Source of the DNA: Carnegiea gigantea
Lineage: Eukaryota > Streptophyta > Magnoliopsida > Caryophyllales > Cactaceae
Assembly (NCBI GenBank): GCA_029747015.1
Contig: JAKOGI010000449.1
Span: 74,501-138,500 of the forward strand
Reading direction: 5' to 3'
DNA: 64,000 bases
The notes under the pieces were generated by a model. It did no database searches, was not told the origin of the DNA, and saw only the letters and a list, made by a program, of their open reading frames with translations. The position numbers and the translations under genes were made by a program. This document shows, piece after piece, positions 33,501 to 62,495 of this stretch; position 1 is the stretch's first letter; each line of letters begins with the position of its first letter.

Positions 33501-36500
33501 CTCGGAAAGTGGGTTGAAGTTAGTAAATTGGAATTTACCAACGAAAAAAAACAGTGACTTAATTAGGAAGTATGGATTAACAATCAAGTTGGCCGATGTG
33601 ATCTGAGATTGTTAGGATTGATGGGCAATGCTCGTCTACAGGTAGAAATGTTACTGCTTACAGTTCATTTATTTCTGGGATGTATTCTTTTCAACTTATG
33701 GTAAATACTTATTGATACTTACCATTGAAATGTATTGAAGCATACTGAATTGTGCTGAATCGGTTTATATTTAATAATAATTAAGCCAAAAAAATGTATT
33801 CATAGGGCATGTTCTTTTCAACTTGTGGTAAGTACTTATTATTAGCATTTGGCACATTTTAGCACAATTTAGCATAGTTAAGTACATTTCAGCATTATTT
33901 AGCATAATTCAGTATAATTTAGTATAATTCAATACAATTTAACACTTATGAAAGTACATAATTGACTAGATTGTGATTAAATTTAAATTACATGTTCTTA
34001 TTATTTATCAATAATTGTACTTATTTGACTAACATAAATAGATTTATTATTGTTATTGTAGAATTCATTTAAAATTTAATTTTAAATGAATTTTACATTA
34101 TATAATGAAGTAAAATATTTCACACTTTCAAGTATAATATAAAAAAATTAATATTATTGTATTCATTAAATGTACATTATTTGATGATTATTATCTAATA
34201 TAAGTACATAAATTTTTCATGAGTTATTTAAAAACTGCATACTTATTCTAAGAATGTAACTAAAATTGAAAGACAAATTTTTAAGACAATTTTTTTAAAA
34301 AATATTGCTATTCATAAATTAATAATTTTATTACCAACTTTTATATTCAATATATTCTTATATCTAATTTTTTCCTATCTCTTGAGAAATAAAGAATTAC
34401 CCTATCTTCTTCTCCTCCTCCTAAATACATCCCACTAATAAATGGGAATTATTTTATTGTGGAGAGCACAAATCCTGCCACTGACTACAGCATCTAGCGA
34501 TAATATCAACTTGTAATTTACTAATAACTACCTAGAAATGTGTGTTTTAAGTATTTACAGTTATAATTATTTTTAAAATTGAATTAATTTTGCGATCCAT
34601 TGCTAAGGATACAGGAAATTATTATGTTAATAATAGCAAATGCAAACTAAGTATAAATTTGTAAATTAATTGTCGATTACACATATTATTTAAAAAACTC
34701 ATTTAAATTTTAATTTACAAAGACCATAGCATATAAAATACAACTCGTTGAAGAATGATCATATTCTACAACAACAAAAATAAAAATGTATTTATAAGTG
34801 CTCATTTAATTTTCATTGTATAAAATACTTACCCAACTACACACACACAGAGTTAATTACTATTAATCCCTAATTATGTAAACTCATTCAGCACGATTTA
34901 GATGTTTTAGCCTGTTTTAGTATGTTTTAGTAATAAGTATCAATAAGTATTTATCATAAGTCTAAAAGAACATGCCCATAAATTTGTTTAAATGTGTATA
35001 CACCAAAGATAGGTAATTGTAAATGCATAATTATTTATGAATGAATTTGTTTAATCGATATGTATGATATACAGATAGTTTGTGAATATATTTACTATTT
35101 GAAGTGATTAGTATTAACAGAAAACTAGTTGTAACAGAGTGCTTTGCATGGATAGTGTAAATTTTTTTAATGATTAATGAATATCTAATTTATCGTCATA
35201 ATAACTTCAATATTGATGTCATTTTCAGAGTGTTTATATATCTATTTGGTAGATGTAATTTAGGAATTTCTTTCTTTATACCAAAAAATAATAATAATCT
35301 ATTTGTTGGATGTAATTTTTTTATCCCTTGTGATTTGAATAATAGCAATGTCATCTAATCTTTACCTTTGTTAATGTATAATAAGTCAATCATATGATTC
35401 ACGCAAGCGATAGCTAGAGGTATTTGGACTTGTTCAATACATGCATGAGGGAAATTAGCAAAGTCTTATTCATTGCATTGATATAAGGAATGCTGAGATT
35501 CATGAATTTTCAAATAAAGATGAGTCATATTAAATTAGTTTATAGAATATAATTACTTGGTTTACATCAAGAGTTGGGTACCTAAAATTATACAAAACTT
35601 TTAAAAAATAGAAAAGGAAAACAAAGAACGAATCGTATAGGATGATAAATATGCCCTGGCCCAAACAACTAATATATTCTATTTTCATTTTTTATATTAG
35701 ATTTTATGTATTGTTAGAGGTAATAGATTCCATCATTAGTTTTATTTTGAAAATAATTATAATCAGAACTATAGAGAGTATACATGAACATAATTTGGAG
35801 TTGAAAGTTGTTAGAGGAAGAGGAGGGAGATAGGGTAAAAAATAAAGACAGCATTGTTAGCAACATCAATATAAATTGGAGTTCAAAGTTGTCAGTAAAA
35901 TAATTAATTGGTCCTGCAAATATTTTTCGAAAAATTCATGAGTTAATTTATTAGGTTCTTCAAATAATTATGTAATTTTAGAAAACTCAGGACATACTTA
36001 TGTAATCAATAAATTATTTCCTCAAAATCATTAGAATTTTACAATTACAATAATAAACCTATTTATATTATTAGCATCCCTTCTGTCCCACTAAAGCTAT
36101 CAAAACTTTCCTTTGTGAATGTTCCAAAAGAATTGTCAAAATTTTTTATTGAGTAGAGAAAATAACTTTCATTTGATACATTAGAGTAATAAATGACGTT
36201 GTTGTATTTTTCTAGTATTCCAAATTTGACAACTTCGATGGGATGAAGCGAGTCAAAGAAGTTCAATTATTGAAAACAATTAGGTGATTTAGGTTTAATC
36301 ACAATCTAATTCATAAGTACTTTTTACAAGTGATAAATTATGCTGAATTGTACTAAATTATACTGAATTGCATGGTATTAAATTGTGTTTAGTTGTGCTA
36401 AATTGTGCTGAAATGTGCTGAATGCTGAGGATAATTACTTTTCGTAAGTTAAAAAGAACATGTCATTGGATACTATTCGTCACCACATTTTATATTAGGT

Positions 36501-38272: not shown

Positions 38273-41200
38273 AAGAGAGAGAGAGAGGGCAGGTGCCTGG
38301 TGGTGTTGAGAGACGACGAAGCGCATGACGGATACAAGATCAGTATCTTCAGTGAAATGGTGAAGTCCAAGCATTCCTTTGAGCTGTTGCAAGCACACTA
38401 CTATAGCCGCACCCCCTACGAACCCCACAATGGTTGCATGTGATAGTAAATCCACTATCAACCCTAATCTGCAATTAATTAAACATTCTCTCCATTCATA
38501 TTCTGACCATTTATCAAATTAATTTCAAATCATTTCGATGAGACTGTTTTTCTAAATTACCTGTATGGTGTAAACAATACTCATCGTGTGCATAATAATT
38601 GGCAATCTATAACTGAGTTAAACTTATCAATTTGACAAAAATGTGAACAATGTACTTTGGATAAATATTAAACTTTCTTGTAATGTGCATATGCATAAGC
38701 TAGTATCTTATATGTTGAATGCACTTTAGTCTATAGAAGTTATAATTCTTATAGTTTGTTGGATTTTTTAGAGTATCAAACATATTACTGGACCTTCAAT
38801 TATTAGCTGAAACTTTTAGTTGAATTAATTCGTGAACATGGTATTAAAGACTTTCTAGGGAGAGGTGTGAGGGCCGAATTTCAACAACCTCCTTATTTAA
38901 CATTACACAAGGTAAAGGGAAAAAACAAACATTTATGGCAATTACGCTTCAAACTTGGGGCCATCATGCTTGAAAGGGTGTGTTGAAGAATGAAACATAT
39001 TCTTAGACAGCCGCCAATTTGAGATTTTCATTGAGTTGGTTTTTGATCAAGGTTGGAATATTATAATGGGAGAATTTCAAATTTTTATTCAGACAGTTTA
39101 AGTTATTTTAAATAATATCATTGCACAAAATACTTTGTTCTACTTGCACATATGTAAGCCATGATATATCAAAATCCATCTTTCATATATATATCTATAT
39201 ATACAATGATACTATTTTTAAATTATTATTTTTTTCATTATTAGCAACTTTGGAAATGAAATAGAAAGTGATATTCAAGTACATATCAAGACCTAAAAAA
39301 ATAAAAATAAAAATCTGTGGAACGAAACAATCATATATCATATATATAGTACAAAAACTGAATGGGTTGAATGCGTTAATGGTGTTTTGACAAGTGGCAA
39401 ATCCCTATTGGCTATCTTATATTTATGTCAATACTTTGTGATTATACTTTATTTCATTAATTTAACTATCATCGATTTTATTACCAATATTTAAGTATCA
39501 ATGTTAAATTATTGTTTTTTATTCAATGGTTCTACCAGTTACGAATTTATAAATTGATTGGTTTGATATTCTAGTTGTCATCATTCATTATCCAAATTTG
39601 AAGAGATGTGCCCCCAGGCCAAACGACATTAAACATATAAAAAAAAATAAATAAAAAATATGTATTCTGTGCTAACATGAAGTATAAAAGATAGGAGAAC
39701 AAAATTTATGTTGGAGGTTTTTTATAAAATAACAAAAAAAAGGAAAAAAAGGTGAAAAAGTTTGTATCAAACAGTATACACATATAATGATTATGTATTT
39801 AACTGTGAGATATGTAAATACATTTATCATATATGATTTGATATTTTTATATATCTTCTATTTTTCTTTTTTGAGTAAAAGCGTCTTAAATAATGATGTT
39901 TATTTTACAAATATAATAGGATCATTAGGCACTTATATTCGTGAGATTTATTTTGCAAATATGTCCACAAGGACCCCTAACTAAATTGTAGCATATAGGA
40001 GTTGAGACCCAAACTTGCCTTATCTTTAAAATAATCTTGTATCTTTTAAGAACTAACTACAAATTGATACACTATGGTACATATTAAATTACATGCAATC
40101 CTTCTATTTCAAATTTCTTATTATATGATAAATGCATTTACATGCTTCAAGGATATATATACAATTATCATATATGTATGTCGTTTGACACTAACATCTT
40201 CACCCCCTTTTTTCCTCTTTTTGTTATTTTTTTTTAAAAAATCATATAATATAAGAATTGTTCTCTTATCATGTTAAAAATAGTGTCCAACTAAGAACAT
40301 AGTTGTCAATTCAAGCAGTACTTCAAAAATAAAATAAATTTATGTAGATATTTTTTAGTATTCAATTAGTTAAACATATTAGTACTTCTAATTAAAATAA
40401 ATAATAAAATCACATACTCTTTGAAGAAAAATAATATGATCATAAAATTTTCACACATATTAGTACGAAGCACAGGATGCGCACTAGTTATCATATGATT
40501 CTTAGAAGTCAATAATCCATACTTTGAACACATTGGATGCCCGTAATCTATACTTAAGAGAAAACGTCCATCACTTTACTTTAGGATATTTATTTTTCAT
40601 ATACCGTCACCAAGTGAAACATACTTTGACTTGTGAACTTGATCTTATAAGTTAGACATCACATATGACTCATACACTAGGAGATATGAATGAAATATAT
40701 CATCTACATGAAACAACTAAGCTAACACATCATCAAATCATTGAGTCAAAATATTTATAATTCTGTATTCATGCAAAGAAAATAAATATCCCTAGCGTTC
40801 GGGATGAAACGACGAGGCAGTATATTTATAACATGCAAATGGTGATATTAAAAAAAGATAAAATATATTATTTACATATAAGAAGCTAGCTATTACATCA
40901 TCAAGTCACTAACTCAAATTAAGTCTGACTTGGTGATTGTATATGCAAACTCAATACTCTCAAAGCACAAACATTTGGTGATGTTTCTTAAGTATAGACT
41001 AATTTAATGCCAGCACAGTGTAGATTATTGACATCAAAAATCCTAAATACAACAAAATATAATGGCTCATTAACACAGTTACTAATTTTTTAAAATATTA
41101 GGTTTTAAACCCATGTATAAATTTGTAGTGAGAACAATATCTTTAATATTAATCAACATACTTTATCATATTAACTTTATGTATTAATTCTTAAATCTAT

Positions 41201-44200
41201 TAATCATTAAATTCGAAAGCATAATTTACCATTAATAAAGCATATTTAATGTACATACTTTATCACATTAGCTTCATGTATAATTCTTAAACCTATTAAA
41301 AATCCTATGTCATGGCGTGCGAATTCACTCAATGTTAAACTCGTGCGGCCAGCAAACTACACTTGGAACCTCTTGCTCTGTTTGTTAGTAAGCCTTAAGG
41401 ATGCTTCACTTAGGCTTTATGAAAAGCTAAGTAAACATACTCAAACAAAGAGAACTTAGAGAGTTTAGAAGAATGTTTTGAGTGGCTTGATTACAAATGA
41501 GCCCCCTTTGGGTTTTATATATACATCCACCTTCTCAATTGATGATGGAGATCTATTCGATCCTACCATTATTATTACACTTTCAAAATATTCTATACAA
41601 GTTAATATCCTCTATGTAAAATAGTGTGGAATATTCTAGAGAGTAGTCTACAATATTTTAGTATAGGCCAGAAGGTTCTACGACTCTCCACAAGGTTCTA
41701 GATACTCTAGAAGTTTCTAGAATAGTCTACAAGTATCTAGAATTCTCCAGAAGGTTCTAGAACAGTCTAGGAGACTCTAGAGTTCTCCAAAATATTCAAG
41801 AACAGTCTAGAAGACTTTAGAGTGTCCAGAAGATTTTAGAACACTTTAGAACACTCTAGCGTATTTCAGAAGGATCCAGACCATTTTGGAAGATTTCAGA
41901 ACATTCCAGAACTCTCCCAAAATGCGGCCCGTGACAATCTCCCCTACCTAATCGGGCAACGTCCTTGTTGCTTTGGGGCTAAGTATGCTTCGCCCTTGAG
42001 TTGTCTCGTCTCTAGGAAGTGTCCTTTCCACTTGGTTGGGTTGATGTGCCGTGGCTACCAGCTTGGTACATTAATCCTTTACGCGCTTGTGTCCCATCCT
42101 TGTTCTGGCCCGTTTCCTTCTTTGTGCCAGCTTCCTAGGTGATGTCGAGGATATGACACCCGTAGGTCTCTCATCCCTCATGACGTGGCTAAGTAACCTA
42201 CCTACCTACTCTCCATGAATCAAAGGATAGGTAACACTTTTTCCTTCTGAGCTCCCCTCTCATGGGTATTACATGAGCTTGCCCATTTTCCGTGATGAAC
42301 AAGGTGCTAGCATGAGCAACTATGACGGCTTTTGCCTTATCAAGGAAGTTCATTCTTAGATAGAACTTCTGATCAACAAGAGGAGTGATAGTTATGTCAA
42401 CCTTTCCTTTTGGTCCAACTTGGATGTCCGTACCCTAAGCAACTCCATGGATTGGAAGGCTTTTCACATTAACTCCCTTCACATAGCCCTTCTCTTTTTT
42501 GTAAGGTATGCTGATCTCAATGGCGAGTTCCTTCATCCATGTACACATTGTCTGCTCTGTATCCACCGTAGCTTGGAGCTTTTTACCACTAAATTCGGTC
42601 TCTATATACATGCGGTCATCGGCTTGCTCCTCCACCTTGGATTGGATGGCACTTAGGAGTGATGTTGAGGCAATATTTGTTTCCTCTTCATGCCTCTCCT
42701 CTTCCATCATAAGAGCAGCAAGTTTCCCACACTTCAGGCACTAAAAAACCCGATGAGGCTCATTGCATAAGAAGCATGAGCACCTCTTTAGTATCTCATC
42801 CTTCTTGTCGCTTCCCTTGTCCTTAAAGATTGTTGACATGTCCCACCGGGGAGACTTATCTCGATCTCCGTCACTGTACTATCATCTTAGGTCTTTCTAT
42901 CTCATGGCTTTGAAGATTCCCTCTTGAACTCGACTACGCATTCGGCAGTGGCGATAGCGAAGGTGAGATCTGGCACCCCATGCCTCTCAAGTTTAATATG
43001 AGCTCAATTACTTATGCCATCAAGGAAACAAAAGAGGGCCTCTTGCTCCCCCATGCTTGGGATTTCCAAGAGGAACTCTTAGAACTCTCTCACATACTCG
43101 CGGATGTGACCCTCCTTGTATTGGAGGCATCTTAAATTAGGCCGTGCTTCCTGTTCCACATCCTTGGGATAGAATTATTTATTGAGTTCCCTCTTAAACT
43201 CATCCCATATTTTGTGAGGATTGGATCCTCTACGGACGTCATCACCCTTACAATGCTACCAAACAAGAGCAATATCTTTAAGTGTGAGGGAAGCGTTACA
43301 TACCTTTTGAGCATCATCCTCGATGCCCATTGCCCTGAAGTACGCCTCAAGTCCCCATGGGAAGTTGTCAAACTCCCTTGCATTCCTAACTCCATGGAAG
43401 GCAGGAGGTCTTGGGGCGTTCCCCTTTTGAGCGGTGAGTACCTGGACGGACCCACTATTGGTCACCGTGGTCATGCAAACCTTGATTTGCACTTGAAGGA
43501 ACTCGACCCTTGCCTTGTACACCTCAACCTCAGCCTTGCAAGCCTCGACTTCGGCCTTGCAAGCTTGGAGTTCGCCATCCTTGGTGGCCTGAATGCTTGA
43601 AGGGCTTAGAGTTCCTTCTTGAAGTCGGCAACCGCGGAGATCATAGCCATATACATCTCCCCAGGAAGCTCTTCCATGTCCCCCTCGAACTCGAGCTCCT
43701 CAATGTGTCAGTCTATGTCATCCACCCTACCCGTTAGGGCTGACATGGTGGTGTTTATCTCCGCGAGTTATTCTTTGACAAGGCCCATCACGTCCTTATT
43801 CTTGTCCTTTCCCATCTTGCAACCCCTGTTGAGAGTTGGCATCGATCATATTTGAAGCCATGATCTCCCAACTGAAACCTTGCTGTGATATCAACTGTCA
43901 CGGGTTGCTAATTTACTCAAACTTAAACCCGTACGGCCTAACAAACTGCGTTTGGAATCTCTTACTTTGTTTGCTAGTGACCCTTAAGGATACTTGACTT
44001 AGACTTTATGAAAATTATAGGTAAGCACACTCATACAAAGAGTACTTAGAGAGTTTGAGAGAATGTTTTGTATTGCACTTTGGAATGCTTTGAATGGCTT
44101 GGTTACACATGAGCCCCCTTGTGGTTTTATATACACATCCACATCCTCAATAGACGATGGAGATCTATTTGATCCTACGACTATTATTATACTTCCAAAA

Positions 44201-47200
44201 TATTCTATATAAATATCCTACATGTAGAATAGTGTGGAATATTTTAGAGAGTAGTCTAGAATATTCTTGTATAATCTAGAAGGTTAGGACTATTCACAAG
44301 GGCCTAGATACTGTAGAAGATTCTAGAATAGTTTAAAAGTACCTAGAGTTCTCCAGAAGGTTCTAGAACAATTTAGAAGACTCTACAGTTCTTCTTAAGG
44401 TTCTAGAATAGTTTAGAAGACTCTAGAATTCTCCAGAAAGTTCTAGAATAGTCTAGAAGACTCTAGAGTGACCAGAAGATTCTAGAACACTCTAGAGCAT
44501 TCTAACATATTACGGAAAATTTCAGATTATTCTGGAAGATTCCAAAACTCTCCGAAAACGCGGCCTGTGACACCTAGTGCTTCTAATTTAACCTATTTAA
44601 AAATAATATGAATGGTAATCAAAGAGGCTCGGGATCAATGCACAAATCACCTCTGAATCTAACTGTTACCCATTCTAGCAAAACAAGCCTTTTTTTTTTT
44701 TTGAAAATGGTTAAGTACAAACCGATGCTAGATAGCCCTTCTCTTAAGGGTTCTACCTACGTAATCATCACGGATATTGTATGTAAGCTCGGAGTAAGGG
44801 GAGGTGAAAAAGTTTAAATCATCTTCAAGCAGCACCCCCTCCTAGCGATCCGATCCGCTGCTATATTGCCTTCCCGAAAGACATGAAAAATAGGAGCAGA
44901 GGTGAAGAAAGGTAACATGTGTCGAATATCTAGTACCAGCATCTGAATCCGCTAAGGGATACGGATAGTGCCCTGTACTGCCTGAATAACAATTTGATTG
45001 TCTCCCTCAATTTGGATATACTTGAAACTCGCATCTTTTGTAGCTTTAAGTCCATCTCGTAAAGTTATAACTTCCGACACCAGTATGGGTGCCTCATACA
45101 TAAATCTAGTCCCAGCTTGAAGAAGACGTCCATGGCTATCTCGCAACAAATACCCTGCTGCTGTACTGGCTGGAGATAAGCTCCCATCGAAGTTAAGGTT
45201 AATCACGCAATCTGGAGGAGGGATCCACCCAATGGATCGGGTGGAACCTAAAGGAGAAGGTAGGTGAAAAGATGAGGATGGAGTGGGAAGGAGTGGATTT
45301 CGATGGCGTTGTTTCCATTCCACCCAGTTGCATTTTTAGCACGAATAAGTGTACACATGGGATTGGGCAAGGCATTTTGAAATACGAGCGCATCATGACT
45401 TTTTCACATACTCCATAGTAAGATTGCGATCCTGGGGAGGGTTACCCGACAACGGCTATATCATTCATGGAGAGCATCATGAGTGGAATTATGCAGCGTC
45501 GCAAAAGGAGGTTGGCAAATCCAACCATGCTTCATTGCCAATTCCCACACACGAGCGGCAAACTAACAATTCGCAAATAGGTGTTCAGTATCCTCAATTT
45601 GAGATAGGCACACAGGACAAATAGGATCGATGGTTGATCCCCTTCGCAATAAGGTGCCTCTAAAGGGGAGCGCATTGTGACATAGTTGCCAAAGGAAAAT
45701 ATGAATTTTTGACAGTATATCCAACTTTCATATCCAGTTAAACTTCCATGGGGACAAAGCAGGTTCAAAAGTACCTTGGGCCTTTCAAGTAGCTGCCTTA
45801 ACCAAGAAATCACCACTTCCTATAAGGCCCCAACAAAAGGTATCCTCAACATCAGCTGACTTCCATATCACATCAATTGACAATTATGCTATTTTCGGTT
45901 TTTCAACTTCCGTTAACATGATTATTCAATTCCCACGTGATACGAGTTGTACGCAAGCAATATTTTAAGATCAAAACCAATTTGCTTCCTAAAACAAAAA
46001 ATGGAAAAACCAAAAGGATGAGAATAGCTGGTGAGTCTAAAAAGTAAAGAGAAGATCCAATGGGAAAGAGACAGATTGAAAATCATATGATTCATGTCCC
46101 GATCAACAACTTTCTGGCTTTCTCCCACTGTTGCTATCATAATATTAATTTCTGAATATGTGGGAAAGTATTCAAGTCAACTAAAAAAGGGTTTCTAATT
46201 TAAATGACATGACTTTCATCCCTTGAAAGTAGTGGCTATTCTCCTTTAAATAGAGAAACATTTGTGACACTATATGACCATGGTTAGGTCTAAATAGGAG
46301 GATCCACTTATTCCGCTTACCATATGAACAAAGAAATGAAATACATACTATGACAACATCAATTTTCGGCATGCAACAGTGCAACATGCATATGTATACA
46401 TCCAATTAAAGGTATGACCGATTATATCTTGATCTTCTCAGACTCTACGTAAGTGGAACCCATATTAAGAGTCGTTCTTTGTTTGTTTGTTAACATGCAT
46501 GTATATGTATGCATATGTAATGCAACATCCATGGTATACGCCTATGACTGCATAAGTTGGAGGTTAATTACCGCAATATCCCCAAAGAAGCTTGAAAAAT
46601 GCCGGCCACAAGAGTAGCAGTAAAAGCCAGGTGAAGGAAGAGCTTGGGATTCTCATTAGGATTGACAACTCTACTCAGCATTGACCCAATCAACAGGGAT
46701 CCTACTGCTGATGTCCCCACCGCCAAATCTCTTGAGCTTCCCAGCACCGCATACACCAATGGTGGTATGAAGCTCGAACCTGAGTATAGCCATATTTAAT
46801 TATTTAATTAATAAAATCCAAAGAATCATTAATTAGTAATTACCACATCGAAAGTTAAAAACTGTCGAGTATTTATATTATAGTCCGCCGACTACAAGGC
46901 AGTGGCGGATCTTGACGTTTGAAACAGGGGTGTCCACCTACTCTACTACTATTTGCATTATTTTCTTCATCTTTTTGATTTTGTTTATTTTCAAGTATCA
47001 TAAAATGTAATTGGATTGATTTATATAAAATTTGGGGAGAAAAACAAAAACACAAACTTAGCGATGAAATCAAACAAGAACACAAGGTTTCTGTGTGATT
47101 GAGTGTGAGTAACAAACCAATTTTACTAAGAACAAAATTCTAGCATGAGAGGACTAACGAGAGAGAGAGAGTCAGATTGGGAGGGAGTTGAGTTGTGGGT

Positions 47201-49753: not shown

Positions 49754-50142
49754 TTTTTTTATACTGTAAACTTACATAGGCCAAGGATGGGAGGCAACTT
49801 AGCGAGCTGGGAATAGCTGATGCCCTGAGGGATGGCAAGGCTAGCAATGGTAATACCCGAAATGAGATCCGACTTGAAGAACCCGAAACTATACCGGGGC
49901 CCCCATTCGAGGATGGGGAAGAAGTATTGCAACCCGAGCAGGAGCTTCCTGCTGAATTTGGGTTGGTTCTTCAACTTCCTAAACGGGTCATCCGGAAACA
50001 GTGCCTCCTTTAAGGATGCCCGCAGGGACTTGAAGAGTGGCTGAGGTGGCGGTGCTACAACCCGGTTCCTCTTTCCGGGATCCATGGCCACCTCCTGGGT
50101 CGGGTACATCCTACACTCATGCTCCTCCACTGTACCCATCAT
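12335..50142 (-). CDS. SULTR3: sulfate transporter, SULTR3 group (12 exons, 673 aa)
   Basis: Encodes a plant SLC26/SulP-family anion transporter: about 12 membrane segments, then a cytosolic STAS domain (about residues 530-650). Exons on the minus strand: 50142-49776, 46779-46572, 38468-38297, 37264-37199, 36816-36703, 32337-32221, 14521-14395, 14180-13894, 13800-13610, 13525-13440, 12915-12839, 12544-12335. All junctions keep one frame; all have GT-AG except intron 3 (GC donor). Family marks seen: [71 protein letters not shown], and DASGI in STAS. Length fits the family (about 650-670 aa). Group-3 members move sulfate in plastid envelope or plasma membrane; localisation is not readable here. 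The SULTR3;1/3;2 resemblance is by memory. Odd features: huge TE-filled introns, DASG for DTSG, and Cys at about residue 123 where LYSSF is usual. Confidence 0.93.
12839..12915 (-). CDS. SULTR3: SULTR3 exon 11
   Basis: The acceptor is taken as GGAAG|CTATAG because it restores the frame and the family length. Reads [20 protein letters not shown] then KRRGLK, donor GTAATCC. The motif is DASG instead of DTSG. Residues 579-604. The acceptor lacks a strong pyrimidine tract, so the precise junction is slightly less sure. Confidence 0.85.
13440..13525 (-). CDS. SULTR3: SULTR3 exon 10
   Basis: Acceptor CATAG, donor GTAAGTGA. Reads [20 protein letters not shown] then QYVILNMD. This is the STAS loop with the DEEED acidic stretch and the beta strand before the DTSG turn. 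Residues 550-578. Confidence 0.93.
13610..13800 (-). CDS. SULTR3: SULTR3 exon 9
   Basis: Acceptor ATGTAG, donor GTACTA. Completes the last helix ([17 protein letters not shown]) and opens the STAS domain with [20 protein letters not shown]. Relatives have ILEIDAPIYFAN, so the acidic E/D positions are replaced (R, A). Residues 487-549. Confidence 0.95.
13894..14180 (-). CDS. SULTR3: SULTR3 exon 8
   Basis: Acceptor TTGTAG, donor GTATGC. Begins (G)[19 protein letters not shown], where the common form is GPFSRSAVNFNAGCKT, so three or four residues of the signature differ (Q for P, T for A, SW for AG). The hydrophobic helices follow, ending EIGLLIA. Residues 391-486. Confidence 0.95.
14395..14521 (-). 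CDS. SULTR3: SULTR3 exon 7
   Basis: Acceptor ATGTAG, donor GTATAATC. Reads [20 protein letters not shown] then [20 protein letters not shown]. This is the central conserved block of plant sulfate transporters. It is separated from exon 6 by 17.7 kb of nested transposons. Residues 349-390. Confidence 0.95.
14522..15100. other. intron 6, 5'-of-LINE segment
   Basis: Intronic sequence next to exon 7. No coding domain, RNA gene or repeat boundary recognised. Confidence 0.4.
15100..19100 (+). mobile_element. L1-type LINE remnant in intron 6
   Basis: Plus strand, antisense to the host gene. An endonuclease start is seen at about 15592 ([19 protein letters not shown]), then a broken APE domain (LGDYNNVW near 16000). 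A linker follows at 16645-16851 ([20 protein letters not shown]). The reverse transcriptase remnant at 17364-17741 has [12 protein letters not shown], where FADD is usual. The 3' zinc-binding/ORF2 tail is decayed up to about 19070, where an A-rich 3' end is suggested. Many stops; inactive. The ORF1-like part near 15180-15480 is uncertain. Confidence 0.8.
19100..20155 (+). repeat. probable gypsy LTR, left part (split by Copia)
   Basis: Pyrimidine-rich (about 19495-19560) then T-rich sequence. If the Copia element at 20161-25134 and one TSD copy are removed, this stretch joins 25140-25824, which ends just before a gypsy-type primer-binding motif. The combined sequence would be an LTR plus leader. 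The LTR start was not fixed. The open frames at 19292-19683 on both strands are low-complexity shadows. Confidence 0.4.
20161..20375 (+). repeat. 5' LTR of Copia element
   Basis: 215 bp, starting TATTAAGGACATTG and ending TCTTTTCTCA. The same ends are found in the 3' LTR. Both begin TA rather than TG, so the mutation probably predates this insertion or belongs to the subfamily. Confidence 0.93.
20376..20386 (+). other. primer-binding site of Copia element
   Basis: TGTATCAGAGC, directly after the 5' LTR, matches TGGTATCAGAGC (initiator Met-tRNA complement) with one G missing. Confidence 0.8.
20455..21500 (+). pseudogene. Copia gag remnant with CCHC knuckle
   Basis: [15 protein letters not shown] near 20470-20515 is the usual N-terminus of this Copia gag family. 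A perfect zinc knuckle, [14 protein letters not shown], lies at 21204-21245 and is followed by a Gly/Arg-rich tail. Several stops interrupt the frame. The minus-strand frames at 21159-21488 are shadows. Confidence 0.85.
21534..22800 (+). pseudogene. Copia protease and integrase remnant
   Basis: The protease active-site region near 21534-21575 reads [13 protein letters not shown], so the DSGA motif is lost. The integrase zinc region at 21881-22150 has [19 protein letters not shown] and [11 protein letters not shown]. The core continues with [17 protein letters not shown], and the catalytic-region pattern [20 protein letters not shown] lies at 22255-22518. An integrase C-terminal part is at 22585-22803 ([15 protein letters not shown]). 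Stops and small gaps divide the frame. Confidence 0.88.
22881..23342 (+). pseudogene. Copia integrase-RT linker segment
   Basis: 153 open codons rich in Ser, Gln, Asn, Arg and Pro, with short repeated units such as [20 protein letters not shown]. It then runs into SRHLQDYVC, the usual block just before the RT domain. Disordered linkers are normal at this place in Copia polyproteins; this one is long and repetitive. Confidence 0.75.
23400..24150 (+). pseudogene. Copia reverse transcriptase remnant
   Basis: Readable blocks are [20 protein letters not shown] (about 23430-23480), [20 protein letters not shown] (about 23528-23587), [18 protein letters not shown] (about 23714-23767), [12 protein letters not shown] (about 23833-23868) and [13 protein letters not shown] at 23890-24147. 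The catalytic MDD is kept. Frameshifts separate the blocks. Confidence 0.9.
24200..24920 (+). pseudogene. Copia RNase H remnant and 3' end
   Basis: The RNase H pattern [12 protein letters not shown] near 24460-24495 and [20 protein letters not shown] near 24579-24640 are clear. The polyprotein end ALPxGR-like stretch lies near 24900, followed by GAGGGAGGAG (24911-24920), a polypurine tract touching the 3' LTR. A minus-strand frame at 24599-24811 is a shadow. Confidence 0.87.
24921..25134 (+). repeat. 3' LTR of Copia element
   Basis: 214 bp, same ends as the 5' LTR, with a one-base gap and roughly twenty differences by eye. The flanking target duplication aaatt follows at 25135-25139. Confidence 0.93.
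25140..25824 (+). repeat. probable gypsy LTR, right part
   Basis: Continuation of the sequence cut by the Copia insertion. It ends just before TTTGGTGCCATTGTTGGG (25825-25842), which resembles the TTTGGCGCCGTTGCCGGG primer-binding region of plant gypsy elements with a few transitions. Confidence 0.45.
25825..26480 (+). pseudogene. gypsy leader and gag fragment
   Basis: After the primer-binding-like site, a T-rich leader leads to scraps of gag. The best is the frame 26187-26372 (61 codons: [20 protein letters not shown], then AHDTWENG), reminiscent of the Athila-type gag region before the zinc knuckle (from memory). No pol follows, so the element is truncated. Confidence 0.45.
26481..26880. 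other. CGGGTT-rich repeat-like spacer
   Basis: Several ACGGGTTGGGT / TTCGGGTTCGGGTT-type units between 26515 and 26635, and again near 26790-26840. This resembles the interior of hAT-like MITEs, but no terminal repeats were found. Confidence 0.35.
26880..28450 (+). pseudogene. Copia (SIRE/UBN2-type) gag remnant
   Basis: [20 protein letters not shown] (about 26910-26975), then ACETAQQI and [20 protein letters not shown] (27132-27398), then an acidic segment with [11 protein letters not shown] (27392-27694). A Lys-rich coiled-coil-like stretch (28020-28300) precedes a zinc knuckle, [14 protein letters not shown] (about 28339-28380). This is the plant UBN2 gag of SIRE-like Copia elements. Stops break it into five pieces, and the pol genes that should follow are absent. 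Confidence 0.85.
28451..29299. other. 3' non-coding part of deleted Copia element
   Basis: No pol. The sequence contains GGGGAGAATTG- and AAGGGGGAGC-type stretches and CTCCTTCTTGTGCCACCG (about 29180-29200), like the 3' leader of SIRE-type elements (memory). The deletion joins the gag end to this region somewhere near 28450-28900. Confidence 0.45.
29300..30314 (+). repeat. polypurine tract and LTR of deleted Copia element
   Basis: AAAAAGGGGGAGAT (29300-29313) is directly followed by TGTTAGC, a textbook PPT-LTR start. The LTR-like sequence runs to about 30300 (TTCACCCCCTCTATAG is typical of the end). It is followed by GTGGTATCGATGG, which looks like a degraded primer-binding site. An LTR followed by a PBS would make this a 5'-type LTR joined to an upstream element, or a coincidence. 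Confidence 0.5.
30315..30953. other. no gene seen
   Basis: CT-rich, non-coding intron sequence. A repeated GGGAAGGGAAGG tract lies near 30411-30426. Confidence 0.35.
30954..31963. mobile_element. non-autonomous hAT-like element (1010 bp)
   Basis: An exact 8-bp target duplication, ctcacttt, flanks it (30946-30953 and 31964-31971). Ends: CATAGGCGGAGCT on the left and, reverse-complemented, TAGGGGCGGAGCC on the right. Subterminal GGGGCAAGGGGGTCAATTGA also occurs in the related element at 47989-48273. There is no transposase. The CT-rich open frames at 31147-31459 are low-complexity. An internal inverted repeat is listed separately. Confidence 0.8.
31703..31890. repeat. internal inverted repeat (hairpin)
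   Basis: The arm near 31703-31757 (AATTAGGTTTTGCCTTTCTT...) is mirrored by the arm near 31825-31890 (...AAAAAAGGCAAAACCTAATT), about 55 bp each with few mismatches and a loop of about 65-70 nt. It lies inside the hAT-like element and would fold in either transcript orientation. Confidence 0.8.
32221..32337 (-). CDS. SULTR3: SULTR3 exon 6
   Basis: Acceptor ATTCACAG, donor GTAAGTTC. Reads [20 protein letters not shown] then [10 protein letters not shown], ending VVVTA. This matches the loop and helix before the EGIAVGR motif. Relatives have ALTEG or ALAEG at the junction; this copy gives VTAEG. Residues 310-348. Confidence 0.93.
32338..32839. other. intron 5, 3' segment
   Basis: AT-rich intron sequence. 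No repeat boundary or gene recognised. Confidence 0.35.
32840..32965 (+). repeat. SINE-like 3' part (Au/TS type)
   Basis: AACCTCTCTACGGACAGGG, then AGAGGTAAAGTTGCCTATAT, CCATACCCCGCGAAAGCAGG and a GGTGGTGGTGGTGTT tail resemble the Au-type SINE 3' half. It is related to the copy at 12040-12150. A poly-T/poly-A pair follows at 33040-33090. Confidence 0.55.
33320..33530. repeat. GTTGAAGTGGGTT-type minisatellite-like tract
   Basis: Repeated units such as GGTTGAAGTGGATTGAAGTA; the reverse complement of the tract at 1425-1600. Confidence 0.5.
33806..36465. mobile_element. long-terminal-inverted-repeat DNA element (about 2.66 kb)
   Basis: The left 33806-33990 and right 36283-36465 are inverted copies over about 180 bp, starting GGGCATGTTCTTTTCAACTT on the left and, reverse-complemented, GACATGTTCTTTTTAACTTA on the right. 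Both arms are filled with AGCACAATTTAGCATA-like subterminal repeats. A third, partial copy of the end lies inside at about 34885-34977 (facing inwards from the right), and a fourth near 33677-33770. No transposase domain is recognisable in the AT-rich middle. The superfamily is undetermined; the target duplication is unclear. Confidence 0.65.
36703..36816 (-). CDS. SULTR3: SULTR3 exon 5
   Basis: Acceptor TGCAG, donor GTAAGAGC. Reads [20 protein letters not shown] followed by a segment ending [16 protein letters not shown] and LTHAERHG are family-diagnostic. A poly-G run lies just beyond the donor (about 36678-36688). Residues 272-309. Confidence 0.95.
36817..37198. other. intron 4
   Basis: Short AT-rich intron with canonical GTAAGT...GCAG ends. 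Nothing else seen. Confidence 0.6.
37199..37264 (-). CDS. SULTR3: SULTR3 exon 4 (66 nt)
   Basis: A small exon lying between TTGCAG and GTAAGTTTG, coding [20 protein letters not shown] then YI. It supplies exactly the WRWES...TRY segment missing between exons 3 and 5. The CTTCTTCTCCCTCCTCCTC tract makes it look like simple sequence. Residues 250-271. Confidence 0.9.
38193..38288. repeat. (TA)n-(GA)n compound microsatellite
   Basis: About 75 bp of TA followed by a short GAGAGA tract, on the plus strand. It begins a few bases inside intron 3 next to the GC donor of exon 3. Open frames reading through it encode only Ile-Tyr repeats and are spurious. Confidence 0.95.
38297..38468 (-). CDS. SULTR3: SULTR3 exon 3
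   Basis: Acceptor TTGCAG at 38474-38469. Contains [20 protein letters not shown] and KGMLGLHHF, and ends VVSQHHQ at CAG|GCACCT. The donor dinucleotide is GC, not GT, and a (GA/TA)n microsatellite follows at once. Conceptual reading past CAG gives residues not seen in the family, so the exon end at 38297 is well supported. Residues 192-249. Confidence 0.88.
38480..39190. other. intron 2, AT-rich segment
   Basis: No gene or clear repeat boundary seen. Confidence 0.35.
39194..40487 (+). mobile_element. Helitron-like non-autonomous element
   Basis: The 3' end GAAGCACAGGATGCGCACTAG resembles plant Helitron ends: a GC-rich stretch followed by CTAG, with T following. A candidate 5' end, TCTATATATAC, is preceded by A, as expected for insertion between A and T. 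No Rep/helicase is encoded. A clean terminal stem was not verified, so the 5' end is the weaker part. Confidence 0.45.
40490..41319. other. intron 2, AT-rich segment
   Basis: No gene or clear repeat boundary seen. Confidence 0.35.
41320..41936 (-). repeat. 3' LTR of gag-only element
   Basis: 617 bp. Contains a TATATATAAAACC box read on the minus strand (about 41524-41511) and three perfect three-unit heat-shock elements at 41710-41722, 41750-41762 and 41899-41911, plus degenerate units between 41630 and 41910. Confidence 0.9.
41710..41911. promoter_or_regulatory. heat-shock-element cluster, 3' LTR
   Basis: GAAgtTTCtaGAA (41710-41722), GAAggTTCtaGAA (41750-41762) and GAAcaTTCcaGAA (41899-41911) each match the nGAAnnTTCnnGAAn heat-shock-factor consensus exactly. 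HSF binding is inferred, not shown. Confidence 0.65.
42320..42760 (-). pseudogene. gypsy-type protease remnant of gag-only element
   Basis: The minus frame 42710-42435 reads [20 protein letters not shown], then [16 protein letters not shown]. It matches the retropepsin-like piece after the knuckle (relatives have VDTGAT; this copy has VDTEQT, so the active site is lost). Downstream, [20 protein letters not shown] and [18 protein letters not shown] follow. Plus-strand frames over the same bases are shadows. Confidence 0.8.
42740..43600 (-). pseudogene. gypsy-type gag of gag-only element
   Basis: The minus frame 43522-43256 contains [20 protein letters not shown] then [17 protein letters not shown], the classic plant gypsy gag start (REIDNFLWGLEQYF). 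Further downstream, frames carry gag-like pieces to about 42960 and a knuckle [12 protein letters not shown] near 42785-42750 (* = stop). Frameshifts and a stop are present. Confidence 0.85.
44124..44133 (-). promoter_or_regulatory. TATA box of gag-only element LTR
   Basis: TATATAAAAC on the minus strand, downstream of the HSE array. The matching position in the other LTR reads TATATATAAAACC. Confidence 0.6.
44316..44542 (-). promoter_or_regulatory. heat-shock-element array in 5' LTR
   Basis: Five perfect inverted GAA/TTC triplets: 44316-44328, 44356-44368, 44436-44448, 44475-44487 and 44530-44542. Partial units lie between them (TTCTAGAA palindromes). The array lies about 180-410 bp upstream of the TATA box on the minus strand. 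The layout recalls the heat-responsive LTR of Arabidopsis ONSEN, but this element is gypsy-like rather than Copia. Confidence 0.7.
44830..45870 (-). mobile_element. L1-type LINE 3' end (zinc-binding RT tail and RNase H)
   Basis: Minus strand. The zf-RVT-like part near 45760-45600 reads [20 protein letters not shown] and [16 protein letters not shown]. The RNase H frame at 45323-44952 reads [35 protein letters not shown] and [16 protein letters not shown], with the DGS and E/D positions of plant LINE RNase H. It continues beyond a stop with [20 protein letters not shown]. It is 5'-truncated and broken by stops. Confidence 0.85.
45871..46571. other. intron 2 segment next to exon 2
   Basis: No gene or recognisable repeat seen. 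Confidence 0.35.
46572..46779 (-). CDS. SULTR3: SULTR3 exon 2
   Basis: The acceptor ACTCAG precedes GTTCGAGC. The exon reads [20 protein letters not shown] and continues through GILR, closing with CG|GTAATT. The split first codon becomes TGT (Cys123), where relatives have Tyr. Residues 123-191. Asn-rich [17 protein letters not shown] is the usual loop before the next helix. Confidence 0.95.
46900..47441. mobile_element. non-autonomous hAT element (542 bp)
   Basis: An exact 8-bp target duplication, ctacaagg (46892-46899 and 47442-47449). Ends CAGTGGCGGATC and, reverse-complemented, CATGGGCAGATC. Subterminal GGGGTGTCCA recurs at both ends in opposite orientation. No transposase. In intron 1. 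Confidence 0.88.
47989..48273. mobile_element. hAT-like MITE (285 bp)
   Basis: An exact 8-bp target duplication, gagacaat (47981-47988 and 48274-48281). Ends TACTAGCGGAG and, reverse-complemented, TATAGGCGGAG. Its right half shares GTCAATTGA-type and GGGGCAAGGGGG sequence with the 1-kb element at 30954-31963, so both belong to one family. Confidence 0.85.
49282..49749. mobile_element. MITE between two (TA)n arrays
   Basis: TA arrays at about 49296-49331 and 49717-49749 flank a unit at about 49332-49713. Its ends are inverted copies over about 44 bp: GATGATACGGGTCTTGCTAT on the left and, reverse-complemented, AATGATAAGTGTCTTGCAGC on the right. An insertion into TA microsatellites would hide its own target duplication; rice Micron elements behave this way (memory). 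In intron 1, just before the exon 1 donor. Confidence 0.65.
49776..50142 (-). CDS. SULTR3: SULTR3 exon 1
   Basis: Starts at tandem ATGs (50142 and 50139); I took the first, but the second gives the MGTVEEH start closer to relatives. Contains [20 protein letters not shown], the typical SULTR3 N-terminus, and [19 protein letters not shown] of the first membrane block. Ends CTAT|GTAAGT, phase 1. Residues 1-122. Confidence 0.95.
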
Positions 50143-52108: not shown

Positions 52109-52790
52109 CTCCAAAGGCGATTTAATTATCAGTTAACCTTTAAATGTTTAACCCTTTTGGGTACATCAATGGGTTAATCTTGAATCCTCCTAAGGCGAAC
52201 GTTTGTAAAGGCAAAAATCCTCCAAAGGCGAATTTGACTTGATTATTGGTTAACCTTTGAATGTCTAACCCTTTTGGGTGCATCAACGGGTTAACCTTGA
52301 ATCCTCCTAAGTTGAACTTCCTCAAAGGTAAAAATCCTCCAAAGGCGAATTTGACTTGATTATCGGTTAGCCTTTAAATGTCTAACCCTTTTGGACACAT
52401 CAACGGGTTAGCCTTGAATCCTCTTAAAGTGAAAATCATCCAAATGTGAATTTGACTTGATTATCGGTTAACCTTTGAATGTCTAACCCTTTTGGGTACA
52501 TCAACGGGTTAACTTTGAATTCTCCAACGGCGAAAATCCTCTAAAAACGAAAATCCTCCAAAGGCGAATTTGACTTGATTATGAGTTAATCTTTGAATGT
52601 CTAACACTTTTGGGTACATCAATAAGTTAACCTTGAATCCTCCTAAGGCGAAAATCCTCCAAATATGAAAATCTTCCAAAGTGAATTTGACTTGATTATC
52701 GGTTAACCTTTGAATGTCTGACCCTTTTGGATACATCAATAGGTCAACCTTGAATCCTCCAAAGGTAAAAATTCTCCTATTTGCTGAAGA
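52109..52790 (-). repeat. tandem array of about 114-bp units encoding a 38-aa peptide
   Basis: About six units, each with TTTGACTTGATTATCGGTTA and CTTTGAATGTCTAACCCTTT. On the minus strand several stay open and give KVNPLMYPKGLDIQRLTNNQ then VKFAFGGF per unit (frames 52325-52140 and 52835-52509). The period is divisible by three, so the peptide repeat is kept. Function unknown. Confidence 0.85.
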
Positions 52791-53399: not shown

Positions 53400-54470
53400 C
53401 ATAAATGTTTGGTCAACGACTTGAGAGTCAGCAACTTCAATGATTTGTTGATCTTGAACTTGAATACTTAGGCTCTTCTTAAACTTCAAGGACTTAGGAG
53501 TCTCAAGCTTTTGATAACTTGATCATTCTAAACTTTGATGACTTCAGAGTCTTTACCTTTGAGGATTTAGGAGTCTGGCTTTGGATGAATTTCGATGACT
53601 TTGGCATCCTGAACTTTGAAAACTTAGGCTCTTCTTAAACTTCAATGACTTGGAGTCTTTAATTTTGATGACTTGAGAGTCTTGAACTTAGGAGACTTAG
53701 TTGTCTGTAATTGTGATGACTTGAGAGTCTTTAATTTTGATAACTTGAGAGTCTTGAGCTTGGGAGACTTAGTTATTTTTAACTTTGATAACTTGACAGT
53801 CTTTGTCATGGATGACTTGTGAGGCTTGAACTTGGAAAACTTAAGAGTCTTCAATTTTAATGACTTGAGAGTCTTTGTCTTCGATGACTTGTGAGTCTTG
53901 AACTTGGGAAACTTAAGAGTTTTTATTGTTGATGACTTAAGAGTCTTTGTCTTCGATGACTTATGAGTCTTGAACTTGGGAGACTTAATTGCCTTTAATT
54001 TTGATGACTTAAGAGTCTTTATCTTTGATAACTTGTGAGTCTTGAATTTGGGAGACTTAATTATCTTTAATTTTGATAACTTGAGAGTCTTTATCTTTGA
54101 TGACTTATGAGTCTTGAACTTGAAAGACTAAAGAGTCTTTAATGTTGATGACTTGAGAGTCTTTGCCTTCAATGACTTGTGAGTCATGAACTTAGAAGAC
54201 TTAAGAGTCTTGATTTTGATGGCTTTTGATTTTGATGACTTAAGGGTCTTTATCTTTGATGACTTGTGAGTCATTGAATTCACTTCAAAGTTTATAATTT
54301 TGTTCAATTGATAGTCTTTAGGTGACTTGGAAGTCTTTAATTTTGATGTCTTGAGCGTCTTGCGGATGACTTGATAGTCTGTGCTGACTTGAGAGTCTAG
54401 AAGCTTGGACTTGAAACTCTTAAGGGTGACTTGAGAGTCAAAATTGTTTATCGACTTGGGAGTTTTTAAG
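53400..54470 (-). repeat. GACTTGAGAGTCTT array encoding Lys/Ser/Leu-rich repeats
   Basis: Dense repeats of GATGACTTGAGAGTCTT and variants over about 1.1 kb. On the minus strand one 70-codon stretch (53854-53642) reads LKTLKLSKLKTLKSSQLQTT and similar units, a basic low-complexity peptide. It directly follows gag in the element's orientation. Confidence 0.85.
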
Positions 54471-54567: not shown

Positions 54568-55643
54568 TCAATTAGATTCTTCAGTGTCTTTTTCATCTAA
54601 TGTGATCTTTCCTTCTTTTGCAAGTTGCAGGACTTGTCCCTCGAATGCCTTGCACTTCTCTATAGGATGATTGATAATCCTGTAATACTTGCAATATTTG
54701 GGGTCATTAGTTCTTCCAATTTTTTTAGGACGCCTTGGCTCTGGGAGTTCTATAAGCCCTTTCACAAGAAGTTTGTGAAGAATTTCTAATGCATCAGACT
54801 CAGAATAAGGAAATTCATTCTCTTTAGAGCCTCTAGACATGGAGCCTTTGCTTCTTGACGATGTCACTGATTCACCATTATCAAGTTGTCTCCCATAATA
54901 GGCGATTGTAAGCTCCATATCACTCGTATTGCTAATTCTTGGAAAGTCTTGGGCTTGTTTACTTGCAAAGCGTATAGGATATCCCAATCCATTCCTCGAG
55001 CATACATCTCAACAGCAGAAGATTCAGGCAAGTGATCCTTGCACTTCAATGAGAAAGCACGCCAATGATTGATGTAATCTATGATTGGCTCTTCACCCCC
55101 CTGCTTAGTGTTAGTCAACTCACTTGTGTTGACCACATGGCATGTGCTATAGAAGCGATTCAAGAATTCATTTTTCATTTGCCCCCAGCTATCAATGGAT
55201 GCAGAAGTAAGGTTTGTGTACCAGTCAAATGCAAGATCTTTAAGAGATCACACGAATTGCTTTACTAAGAGGTCGCCACTTGTGCCTGCATTATTACAAG
55301 TCTCGATGAAATGTGCTATATGCAGCTTCGGGTTCCCTTTGCTATCAAATTGATGAAATTTTGGAGGTTGGAAACCCTTAGGTATCTGTAGTGCATTAAT
55401 CCTTTTCGTATACGGCTTGTTGTAACGACGAGTTTTGTGAGAACCTCCCTCTAGATGGGCCTTTACCGCATCCGCTACCATGTTTTGAATTTGCTCAATT
55501 GACATTGAATTCAAGGTTGAATCGTTCTTTGGATTGGGTTCATCGTCAGACTCCTTGCTGTGATCGGACTCTTTGCTAGAATCTTCACCGTCTGAGCCTT
55601 TGTTTGAGGCTTCAAATGACCGCTTTTTCAGCTTCTTTTTCAA
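54568..55643 (-). pseudogene. gag protein of gag-only element, main part
   Basis: Frames 55643-55248, 55178-54864 and 54987-54568 line up as one gag. The domain starts INALQIPKGFQPPKFHQFDS and KLHIAHFIETCNNAG, a TGA stop sits at 55248 (relatives have Arg), then SLKDLAFDWYTNL and FLNRFYSTCHVVNTSELTNT follow. After a frameshift near 54920 come MELTIAYYGRQ and CKYYRIINHPIEKCKAFEGQ, the knuckle-like end typical of this plant gag family. Confidence 0.88.
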
Positions 55644-61643: not shown

Positions 61644-62495
61644 TTGGAAATAGACAAACCTACCTCTTTTGAAGAGGTTATTAATTTACTAAACCATAAG
61701 GAGCGGATGGATGCCATGAGGGATGAAATGGACTCTATGAAAAGAAATAAGGTTTCAAAACTAGTTGATCTTCCTCCCCAACATAAATCAATTAGAAACA
61801 AGTGGGTTTTCAAGATAAAACATTGGGCTGATGGATCATTCAACAAGTTTAAGGCCTGTTTGGTAGCAAAGGGGTTTACCCAAATTGAGGGGATAGAATA
61901 TGAAGAGACTTTTTCTTCTGTGATGAAAATTGCCTTTATTCCCCTCATTCTATTCTTGGTTGCCCATTTGGACTTAAAATTGTTTCAAATGAACATAAAG
62001 ACTGCTTTCCTTATTGGAAGTCTTTAAGAAGAGATCTACATGGATTAACATATTGGTTTTGTATCAAAAGGTCAAGAGGACAAGTGTGTCGTCTTAAAAG
62101 ATCTATTTATCATCACAACAAGACTTTCACAGCGTGGTATTTCAAATTTCATGAAACTATGGCTTAAACATGGTTTCAGAAGAATGTTGTGCATATGTCA
62201 AGAAAGCTGTAGAGGGATTTATGTTCCTTACTTTGTTGACGACATATTATTGGCTGGAAACAACATGGAAATGATCAAAACCACTAATCAATGGTTATCT
62301 TCCATCTTCAAAATGAAGGACATAGGTGAGGTTAGGTATGTGCTAAGCATGAAAATAACCCAAAACCATTCCGAGAAACTTTTTGGTTCAAGTCAAGAAG
62401 TATACATTAATAAAGTCTTGGAATATTTTTGGACGCATCATTCTAAATCCATGGACACTCTAGTTGAAGAGAGTCTAACCTTAAGTCTTGGCTAA
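61644..62495 (+). pseudogene. Copia reverse transcriptase remnant
   Basis: Frame 61644-62027 (127 codons) holds RNKWVFKIKHWADGSFNKFK, ACLVAKGFTQIEGIEYEETF and LFQMNIKTAFLIGSL. A gap and frameshift follow near 62040-62150, then frame 62151-62495 has YFVDDILLAGNNMEMI, with the catalytic DD kept, and FKMKDIGEVRYVLSMKI. Confidence 0.9.

Follow-up and report, generated by a model that had tools for sequence, protein, structure and literature searches.

Heat-shock element arrays in the long terminal repeats of a gag-protease-only, Ty3-type retroelement family of Carnegiea gigantea

A retroelement lying in an intron of a sulfate transporter gene of the cactus Carnegiea gigantea carries repeated matches to the heat-shock element (HSE) in its long terminal repeats (LTRs), which raises the question of whether these LTRs are promoters driven by heat-shock factors (HSFs) or merely contain a tandem repeat that resembles the binding site. 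The window analysed is the whole 64,000-nucleotide stretch at positions 74,501 to 138,500 of contig JAKOGI010000449.1 (assembly GCA_029747015.1), and the comparison extends from there to the rest of the genome. We consider it probable, at about 0.7, that the U3 (unique 3') region of this LTR family is an HSF-driven promoter. What we infer is HSF binding, heat induction and a helper element: after heat, inverted GAA/TTC units in 5-bp register would recruit class A heat-shock factor trimers, a separate HSE some 60 bp upstream of the TATA box would also be bound by HSFs, and RNA polymerase would start just downstream of the TATA box. The resulting RNA would supply gag, protease and its own genome only, and reverse transcriptase and integrase would be borrowed from another element.

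HSEs in the window copy and across the family

Exact HSEs were counted as GAAnnTTCnnGAA and TTCnnGAAnnTTC. The window contains ten exact three-unit matches, of which the 5' LTR holds five and the 3' LTR three, with two elsewhere (35499 and 60021), compared with a mean of 1.23 and a maximum of 6 in whole-window shuffles. The promoter features, all on the minus strand as is the element, are as follows.

44530..44542, minus strand: HSE 1, exact three-unit match GAATCTTCCAGAA, at LTR position +31
44475..44487, minus strand: HSE 2, exact three-unit match TTCTAGAATCTTC
44436..44448, minus strand: HSE 3, exact three-unit match
44356..44368, minus strand: HSE 4, exact three-unit match
44316..44328, minus strand: HSE 5, exact three-unit match
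44315..44487, minus strand: tandem repeat in U3 with a period of 40 (20, 10), made of TTCTAGAA-like units
44193..44205, minus strand: proximal HSE outside the array, damaged (GAATATTTTGGAA)
44124..44133, minus strand: TATA box TATATAAAAC
41899-41911, 41750-41762 and 41710-41722, minus strand: exact HSEs of the 3' LTR

A preliminary description of this DNA had reported five exact triplets at 44316-44542, a TATA box at 44133-44124 and three further triplets in the 3' LTR, and all of these were recovered. Four of the five exact HSEs in the 5' LTR read TTCTAGAAnnTTCT in the direction of the element, and transcription would be expected to begin about 30 bp downstream of the TATA box.

To follow the array through the family, the LTR was used as a query against the 1.13-Gb genome (best 40 of 1030 candidates scored), and 51 LTRs were extracted from 31 stretches around the matches (L009-L039) plus the window, with BLAST clusters under 350 bp left out. 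Because this sample was drawn with the window's own LTR, it leans to array-bearing copies; it also includes at least one duplicate, since the LTRs of L037 and L038 are identical, and L014 and L015, which share flanking sequence, may be another. The 51 LTRs hold 234 exact HSEs upstream of their last 200 bp and none within it, against 0.32 expected in total from 100 dinucleotide shuffles per LTR. At least one exact HSE is present in 48 of the 51 and at least three in 40, with 0 to 10 per LTR across the family. Enrichment over shuffled LTRs in other copies, which the preliminary description had proposed as a test, is thus borne out. Within the fetched loci the matches are confined almost entirely to the LTRs, where 34 kb of sequence holds 237; the interiors (36 kb) and the flanks (178 kb) have one each.

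Two further comparisons lean less to array-bearing copies. Partner LTRs that were not themselves search matches have 2-9 exact triplets in 10 of 10 cases, although each partner belongs to a matched element. A motif for the LTR start, upstream of the array, occurs at 202 places genome-wide compared with 1 for the reversed control, and an exact triplet follows 2-14 bp after 133 of these 202 starts (control 0), at an identical distance in all 100 listed starts with a triplet (of 133); the motif was written from fetched copies, so that this check is less biased, not free of bias.

The arrays extend beyond simple triplets. The longest HSE run measures 2, 3, 4, 5 and 6 units in 3, 22, 15, 2 and 9 LTRs, respectively, such that contiguous runs of 4-6 units are found in 26 of the 51, and TTCTAGAAnnTTCT is present in 132 copies in 43 LTRs. 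Furthermore, 27 of the 51 LTRs keep an exact proximal HSE, GAANNTTCNNGAA, which is separate from the array and lies some 60 bp upstream of the TATA box (22 as GAATATTCTGGAA, 4 as GAATATTCTAGAA and 1 as GAATATTCAGGAA).

Five-unit HSEs have 230 matches genome-wide, compared with 13 for the reversed control. Among 100 listed places there are 65 five-unit loci, 13 of them within 450 bp of a family LTR start and 3 more at 2.2-2.4 kb from one, with the remaining 49 unassigned; conversely, a listed five-unit HSE accompanies 13 of the 87 family LTR starts that lie on the same contigs. Nine listed five-unit matches, mostly overlapping, lie within about 118 bp at G000:C115:521753-521870, with no family LTR start within 6 kb among the listed places, and this cluster is possibly another HSE array or the promoter of a heat-shock gene.

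Tandem repeat or binding sites

The alternative already named in the preliminary description is a plain tandem repeat, in which a TCTAGA palindrome has grown by slippage in U3, the HSE matches are incidental and HSFs play no role. The repeat itself is genuine, with periods of 10, 20 and 40, and dinucleotide shuffles alone consequently overstate the HSE excess. We therefore permuted columns, which preserves the tandem repeat. For the window repeat (44315-44494), the observed HSE count was reached in 0.185% of permutations at period 10, in 0 of 20,000 at period 20 and in 0.005% at period 40, and 10-bp column-order shuffles gave as many HSEs in 0.05% (L009), 0.49% (L020) and 0.28% (L037) of 20,000 trials. 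A random repeat of equal variability thus rarely yields so many HSEs (0.05-0.5% in these three arrays).

The spacing of the units bears on the same point. GAA/TTC/GAA trimers with gaps of 2/2 occur 234 times, and other gap pairs up to nine occur at most 26 times; an inverted neighbour at 5 bp was found for 1004 of 1518 GAA or TTC units. Because the register is 10 bp, arrangements with gaps of 2 and 12 reach similar numbers to 2/2 (214 and 245, with 164 for 12 and 12), and this abundance of other arrangements favours a plain repeat, as does the similar retention of core and spacer letters described below. On the other side stand the contiguous runs of 4-6 units, the exact HSE near the TATA box and outside the array in 27 of the 51 LTRs, and a repeat unit that coincides with the reported HSF optimum. 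Taken together, we judge a repeat with no HSF role to be unlikely.

The unit was profiled from 112 copies in eight LTRs picked as young or array-rich (among them the L018 pair, with 89.9% identity, and the undated L010 and L037). Information per position was 0.90, 1.52 and 1.78 bits for TTC, 1.12 and 1.07 for TA, 1.62, 1.82 and 0.50 for GAA, and 0.53 and 0.40 for the linker, so that TC/GA are the most constant letters, followed by TA; units were gathered by a lenient rule (three of six TCTAGA letters) that favours the middle six positions, not TC/GA over TA. In part, this profile favours selection on the letters that HSFs contact. In published work, Arabidopsis HSFA2 and HSFA3 peaks hold TTCtaGAAnnTTCt, a strong binding motif (PMC10230730), and for a rice class A HSF, TTCTAGAA is both the top motif in DNA affinity purification sequencing and a site bound in electrophoretic mobility shift assays (PMC13079658). 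The family unit matches the HSFA2/A3 motif TTCtaGAAnnTTCt, and TTCTAGAAnnTTCT is the motif of strong HSFA2/A3 binding.

A different protein might recognise the same palindromes, in which case the array would bind a factor preferring TCTAGA and confer basal, tissue-specific or stress-induced expression. In some plant LTRs, including those of Tnt1 and Tto1, other factors bind repeated U3 boxes. In addition, the Ty3 LTRs of PHRE1 and PHRE2 from bamboo, which were studied under heat, interact with TCP, DOF and GATA factors (PMC8656106). However, the spacing observed here is that of HSEs, and class A HSFs of two plants are reported to bind this unit optimally, making another factor a very improbable explanation.

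Age, decay and the state of the window copy

LTR divergence could be obtained for 19 pairs, with one-LTR loci (13 LTRs) left out. The number of HSEs falls with divergence (Spearman rho -0.72, p 4e-4), a trend that fits decay from array-rich sources. The five youngest pairs are 97-98% identical and retain intact arrays with runs of 4-6 units, and 14 of the 19 are 8-17% diverged.

Several observations weigh against an HSF-driven promoter. The age trend would also follow from the decay of any ancestral repeat, and divergence correlates less strongly with the longest run (rho -0.45, p 0.056). Three of the 51 LTRs have no exact HSE, one of which, L013, lacks it since its array begins before the extracted stretch. 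Among all trimers at gaps 0-7, AGA with gaps of 4/0 (242) ranks just above GAA with 2/2 (234), a result that also favours the plain repeat, both arrangements reading the same TCTAGA palindromes. The final A of GAA shows no greater constancy than the linker (0.50 vs 0.53 and 0.40 bits). Core GAA/TTC letters are also not clearly better kept than spacers. When divergence was computed leave-two-out by frame, the true frame gave 8.89%, compared with 8.25% (shifted by one), 12.43%, 11.39% and 9.05% (shifted by four) for the others. Per-letter retention at the first HSE is 95-96% for core and spacer alike, and at the proximal site it is 0.94 for the core, 0.96 for the spacer and 0.91 for the flank. 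Selection for HSF binding is therefore unproven, and decay after insertion looks neutral.

Other measures of conservation give the following picture. The nine core letters of the first HSE are intact at 133 of the 202 LTR starts (gap variable) and about 3.5 spacer letters at 174 of 202 (gap fixed). Outside CpG, core versus spacer divergence (leave-two-out) is 7.6/7.4% for A, 11.9/14.1% for C, 15.1/25.1% for G and 4.6/5.6% for T, and the rest of U3 (A 11.3, C 19.4, G 19.6, T 9.0%) lies above both, save for spacer G. All these tests have little power, as most copies look like dead insertions decaying neutrally. An initial comparison of 16 LTRs (core 5.6%, spacer 11.4%, other U3 14.3%, last 215 bp 14.2%) was discarded, since choosing sites for exactness in one sequence makes them look conserved.

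Alternatively, the array may be a fossil, once an HSF-driven promoter in a family that is now silenced with no copy responsive to heat; this account is compatible with the HSF-driven promoter for the past, and the odds of the two overlap. The 14 dated pairs at 8-17% divergence are in keeping with it, as are the commonest losses at the proximal HSE, which are G-to-A and C-to-T, as in the decay of methylated DNA. Against it stand the five of 19 pairs that are 97-98% identical with intact arrays and an open 642-aa frame in 1 of 14 interiors, and ONSEN is reported to be activated by heat largely independently of transcriptional gene silencing (PMC5059998). We regard a wholly silent family as a real possibility, though a minority one, and under the preferred reading of an HSF-driven U3, heat induction of intact copies is likely.

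The window copy itself has the following layout, running on the minus strand from the 5' LTR through a remnant of the primer-binding site, a broken gag-protease region and the polypurine tract to the 3' LTR, and is followed in the list by the host exons.

43896..44572, minus strand: 5' LTR, 677 bp, with ends TGTCAC...GTGACA, from LTR comparison and ends
43882..43893, minus strand: primer-binding site remnant, reading TGATATCACAGC
41950..43861, minus strand: remains of the gag-protease region, with stops and frameshifts, 74% DNA identity to the L009 interior
41937..41949, minus strand: polypurine tract AGGTAGGGGAGAT
41308..41936, minus strand: 3' LTR, 629 bp, with three exact HSEs and TATATAAAAC kept
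41304..41307, no strand: target-site duplication CCTA, low side
44573..44576, no strand: target-site duplication CCTA, high side
49771..50142, minus strand: host gene coding exon 1 (approximate), PF00916, named homologs being sulfate transporter 3.1
46600..46760, minus strand: host gene coding exon 2 (bounds approximate), from motif translation, the matching stretch lying at about 46.7 kb
38310..38461, minus strand: next host exon downstream (bounds approximate), PF00916

An alignment of the two LTRs over 613 positions gives 84.0% identity (16% divergence), which at substitution rates of 1.3e-8 and 7e-9 places the insertion at about 7 to 13 million years ago. No Pfam match above cut-off was found in three scanned reading-frame pieces of its interior, and the longest listed minus-strand frame there is 107 aa. 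Because the copy is old, its gag is broken, the longest HSE run in both LTRs is 3 units, leaving sites of moderate strength, and the HSE nearest the TATA box of the 5' LTR has lost one base, the case for heat control is weak at this locus: the window copy is today probably a weak or silent promoter, its heat induction is doubtful, and the five youngest pairs would be better candidates for a heat response. The proposal of a heat-responsive LTR in the preliminary description thus holds for the HSE array as a family trait and poorly for the copy from which it was made.

The flanking duplication of the window copy is 4 bp (CCTA on both flanks), and a 4-bp duplication was seen in 8 of 8 other two-LTR copies inspected, five exact and three with one mismatch. 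Exact duplications have C before and G after in six loci (L009, L024, L031, L018, L028 and L011), which suggests a palindromic insertion preference, C-NNNN-G; the window site has C before, but A after.

Sulfate permease exons (PF00916) share the minus strand with the element and lie on both sides of it, and several named homologs bear the name sulfate transporter 3.1. By this homology the host is a SULTR3;1-like gene, and the element lies in sense orientation within the intron that separates the second and third exons traced, in agreement with the preliminary description. The same intron holds an RNase H-like (RVT_3) frame on the minus strand at 44952-45323, immediately upstream of the element. 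Elsewhere the window contains tandem repeats of about 118 bp (52125-52776) and about 72 bp (53645-54225), the latter close to weak, below-cut-off matches to a Ty3-type gag (54864-55178); inverted repeat arms of about 80 nt (33808-33991 and 36284-36462), 78% complementary and 2.3-2.5 kb apart; and Copia-type reverse transcriptase pieces (23890-24147 and 61644-62027).

A gag-protease-only family compared with known heat-responsive elements

Interiors of family copies consist of little more than one frame. An identity search, with matches under 100 bp left out, found family interior in 20 of the 31 loci and none in 11. In 18 loci it forms one stretch of 1.8-2.0 kb at 72-81% identity to the window's 1.96-kb interior; that of L012 is split in two pieces, and that of L010 is partial (69%), the contig ending there. 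Fourteen measured interiors span 1.93-2.05 kb, and an interior query of the genome returned 523 candidates (best 40 scored). All 35 pairs of same-strand neighbouring LTR starts within 20 kb (100 listed of 202 starts) are spaced 1.84-2.59 kb. Hence the short layout belongs to the family and is not a deletion of one copy. No longer, polymerase-bearing version with the family LTR appeared among the 100 listed of 202 LTR starts, where it was sought by LTR spacing only. L037 and L038 each have one LTR with nine HSEs and no family interior, beside pieces of another gypsy element.

The one open frame, of 642 aa, lies at L009:3585-5510 and runs uninterrupted across the polypurine tract up to where the 3' LTR begins. 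It matches PF03732 (Retrotrans_gag), PF19259 (Ty3_capsid) and PF13975 (aspartyl protease) above cut-off, the protease following gag in frame, and these gag and protease domains are the only above-cut-off matches in this one copy's frame, with no reverse transcriptase, RNase H or integrase. The LTRs, primer-binding site and polypurine tract flank the gag frame in family copies, and the primer-binding site of several other copies reads TGGTATCAGAGC, presumably complementary to initiator Met-tRNA. Placed by its gag and protease domains, the family appears non-autonomous and Ty3-type, in line with the gypsy-like, gag-only lineage of the preliminary description (here gag plus protease), and membership in ONSEN-type Copia elements was ruled out because the gag and protease of one copy are Ty3-type (PF19259, PF03732).

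Protein searches (7997 candidates scored) gave 41 relatives of the gag-protease protein, the best named being gag proteins of Ricinus and Manihot at 43-56% identity, with others from Hevea. In one Hevea protein (P0031), which is 53% identical over 37% of the query, the protease is joined to an integrase, and a reverse transcriptase domain (PF00078) occurs in relatives at 31-40% identity; therefore, polymerase-bearing kin exist elsewhere.

This organisation resembles that of TR-GAG elements, gag-only LTR elements (Chaparro et al. 2015, as cited in PMC10552921, PMC9784723 and PMC8704663) of which one transposed in Arabidopsis ddm1 (PMC8704663) and six gave transcripts in sunflower samples comprising toxin plus heat and controls (PMC9784723). 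Both have two LTRs around one gag-coding frame, lack reverse transcriptase and integrase, and are multi-copy. Unlike TR-GAG, the frame here also has an aspartic protease (PF13975, following gag), and we therefore describe the family as TR-GAG-like rather than file it as a TR-GAG member.

The closest functional parallels are the heat-responsive Copia elements of Brassicaceae with HSEs in their LTRs, namely ONSEN/ATCOPIA78, COPIA37, TERESTRA and ROMANIAT5, in which 3P sites give a moderate and 4P sites (at least four adjacent units) a strong heat response (PMC5059998). The family described here shares with them LTR HSEs of the 3P and 4P classes and, presumably, the capture of the host heat response. 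It differs in being Ty3-type and gag-protease only, and in the size of its arrays: a single LTR can hold as many as 10 exact triplets and a run can reach 6 units, compared with one 4P and one gap element in A. thaliana ONSEN. Moreover, the heat response has been measured in ONSEN and its kin and is predicted for the present family.

Other elements share one feature or another. Moso bamboo PHRE1 and PHRE2 are likewise Ty3 elements with LTRs studied under heat stress, but they encode full gag-pol, and the terms HSE and HSF are absent from the text of PMC8656106 as searched. Heat-induced plant Ty3/Gypsy elements whose transcripts rise in heat have been tabulated (PMC9780303), again in a text that, as searched, is without the terms HSE, HSF or heat shock element. 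Cryptococcus TCN3 and TCN12 are LTR elements with putative HSEs (two and one, respectively) and TCN movement is temperature-dependent, but they are fungal (PMC12810828). Caenorhabditis Helitrons carrying HSEs (PMC6927752) are likewise transposons that spread HSEs, but are DNA transposons of animals. With HSE-bearing Copia LTRs (PMC5059998), TCN3 (PMC12810828), bamboo Ty3 elements under heat (PMC8656106) and TR-GAG on record, the assertion of the preliminary description that no equivalent has been described was too strong. The parts are known separately, and their combination (Ty3-type, gag-protease only, with an HSE array) was not met in the literature searched: at the level of listings and passages, with subscription papers mostly outside coverage, no paper joined 'TR-GAG' with 'heat shock element' and no Ty3 gag-only element with HSEs was found.

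A more far-reaching proposal, which we consider tentative and on balance rather unlikely as a whole, is that a gag-protease-only Ty3-type family has turned itself into an HSF target, exceeding ONSEN in its number of units; heat would thereby load the plant with its particles and it would ride on the reverse transcriptase of an element needing no heat response. It would then be a leading supplier of long HSEs to the genome, and could put neighbours such as the sulfate transporter under heat control.

In the literature searched, the HSE-bearing, heat-activated plant LTRs described so far are those of Copia elements. If the U3 of the present family is indeed HSF-driven, heat control would evolve in parasites of parasites too, here a Ty3-type family without a polymerase, and the induction of transcription by heat would be separable from the source of the replication enzymes. 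The family, which has about 200 recognisable LTR starts, HSE numbers per LTR from 0 to 10 and many copies datable by LTR divergence, forms a natural series suited to asking how HSE number sets the heat response and whether LTRs pass that response to nearby genes.

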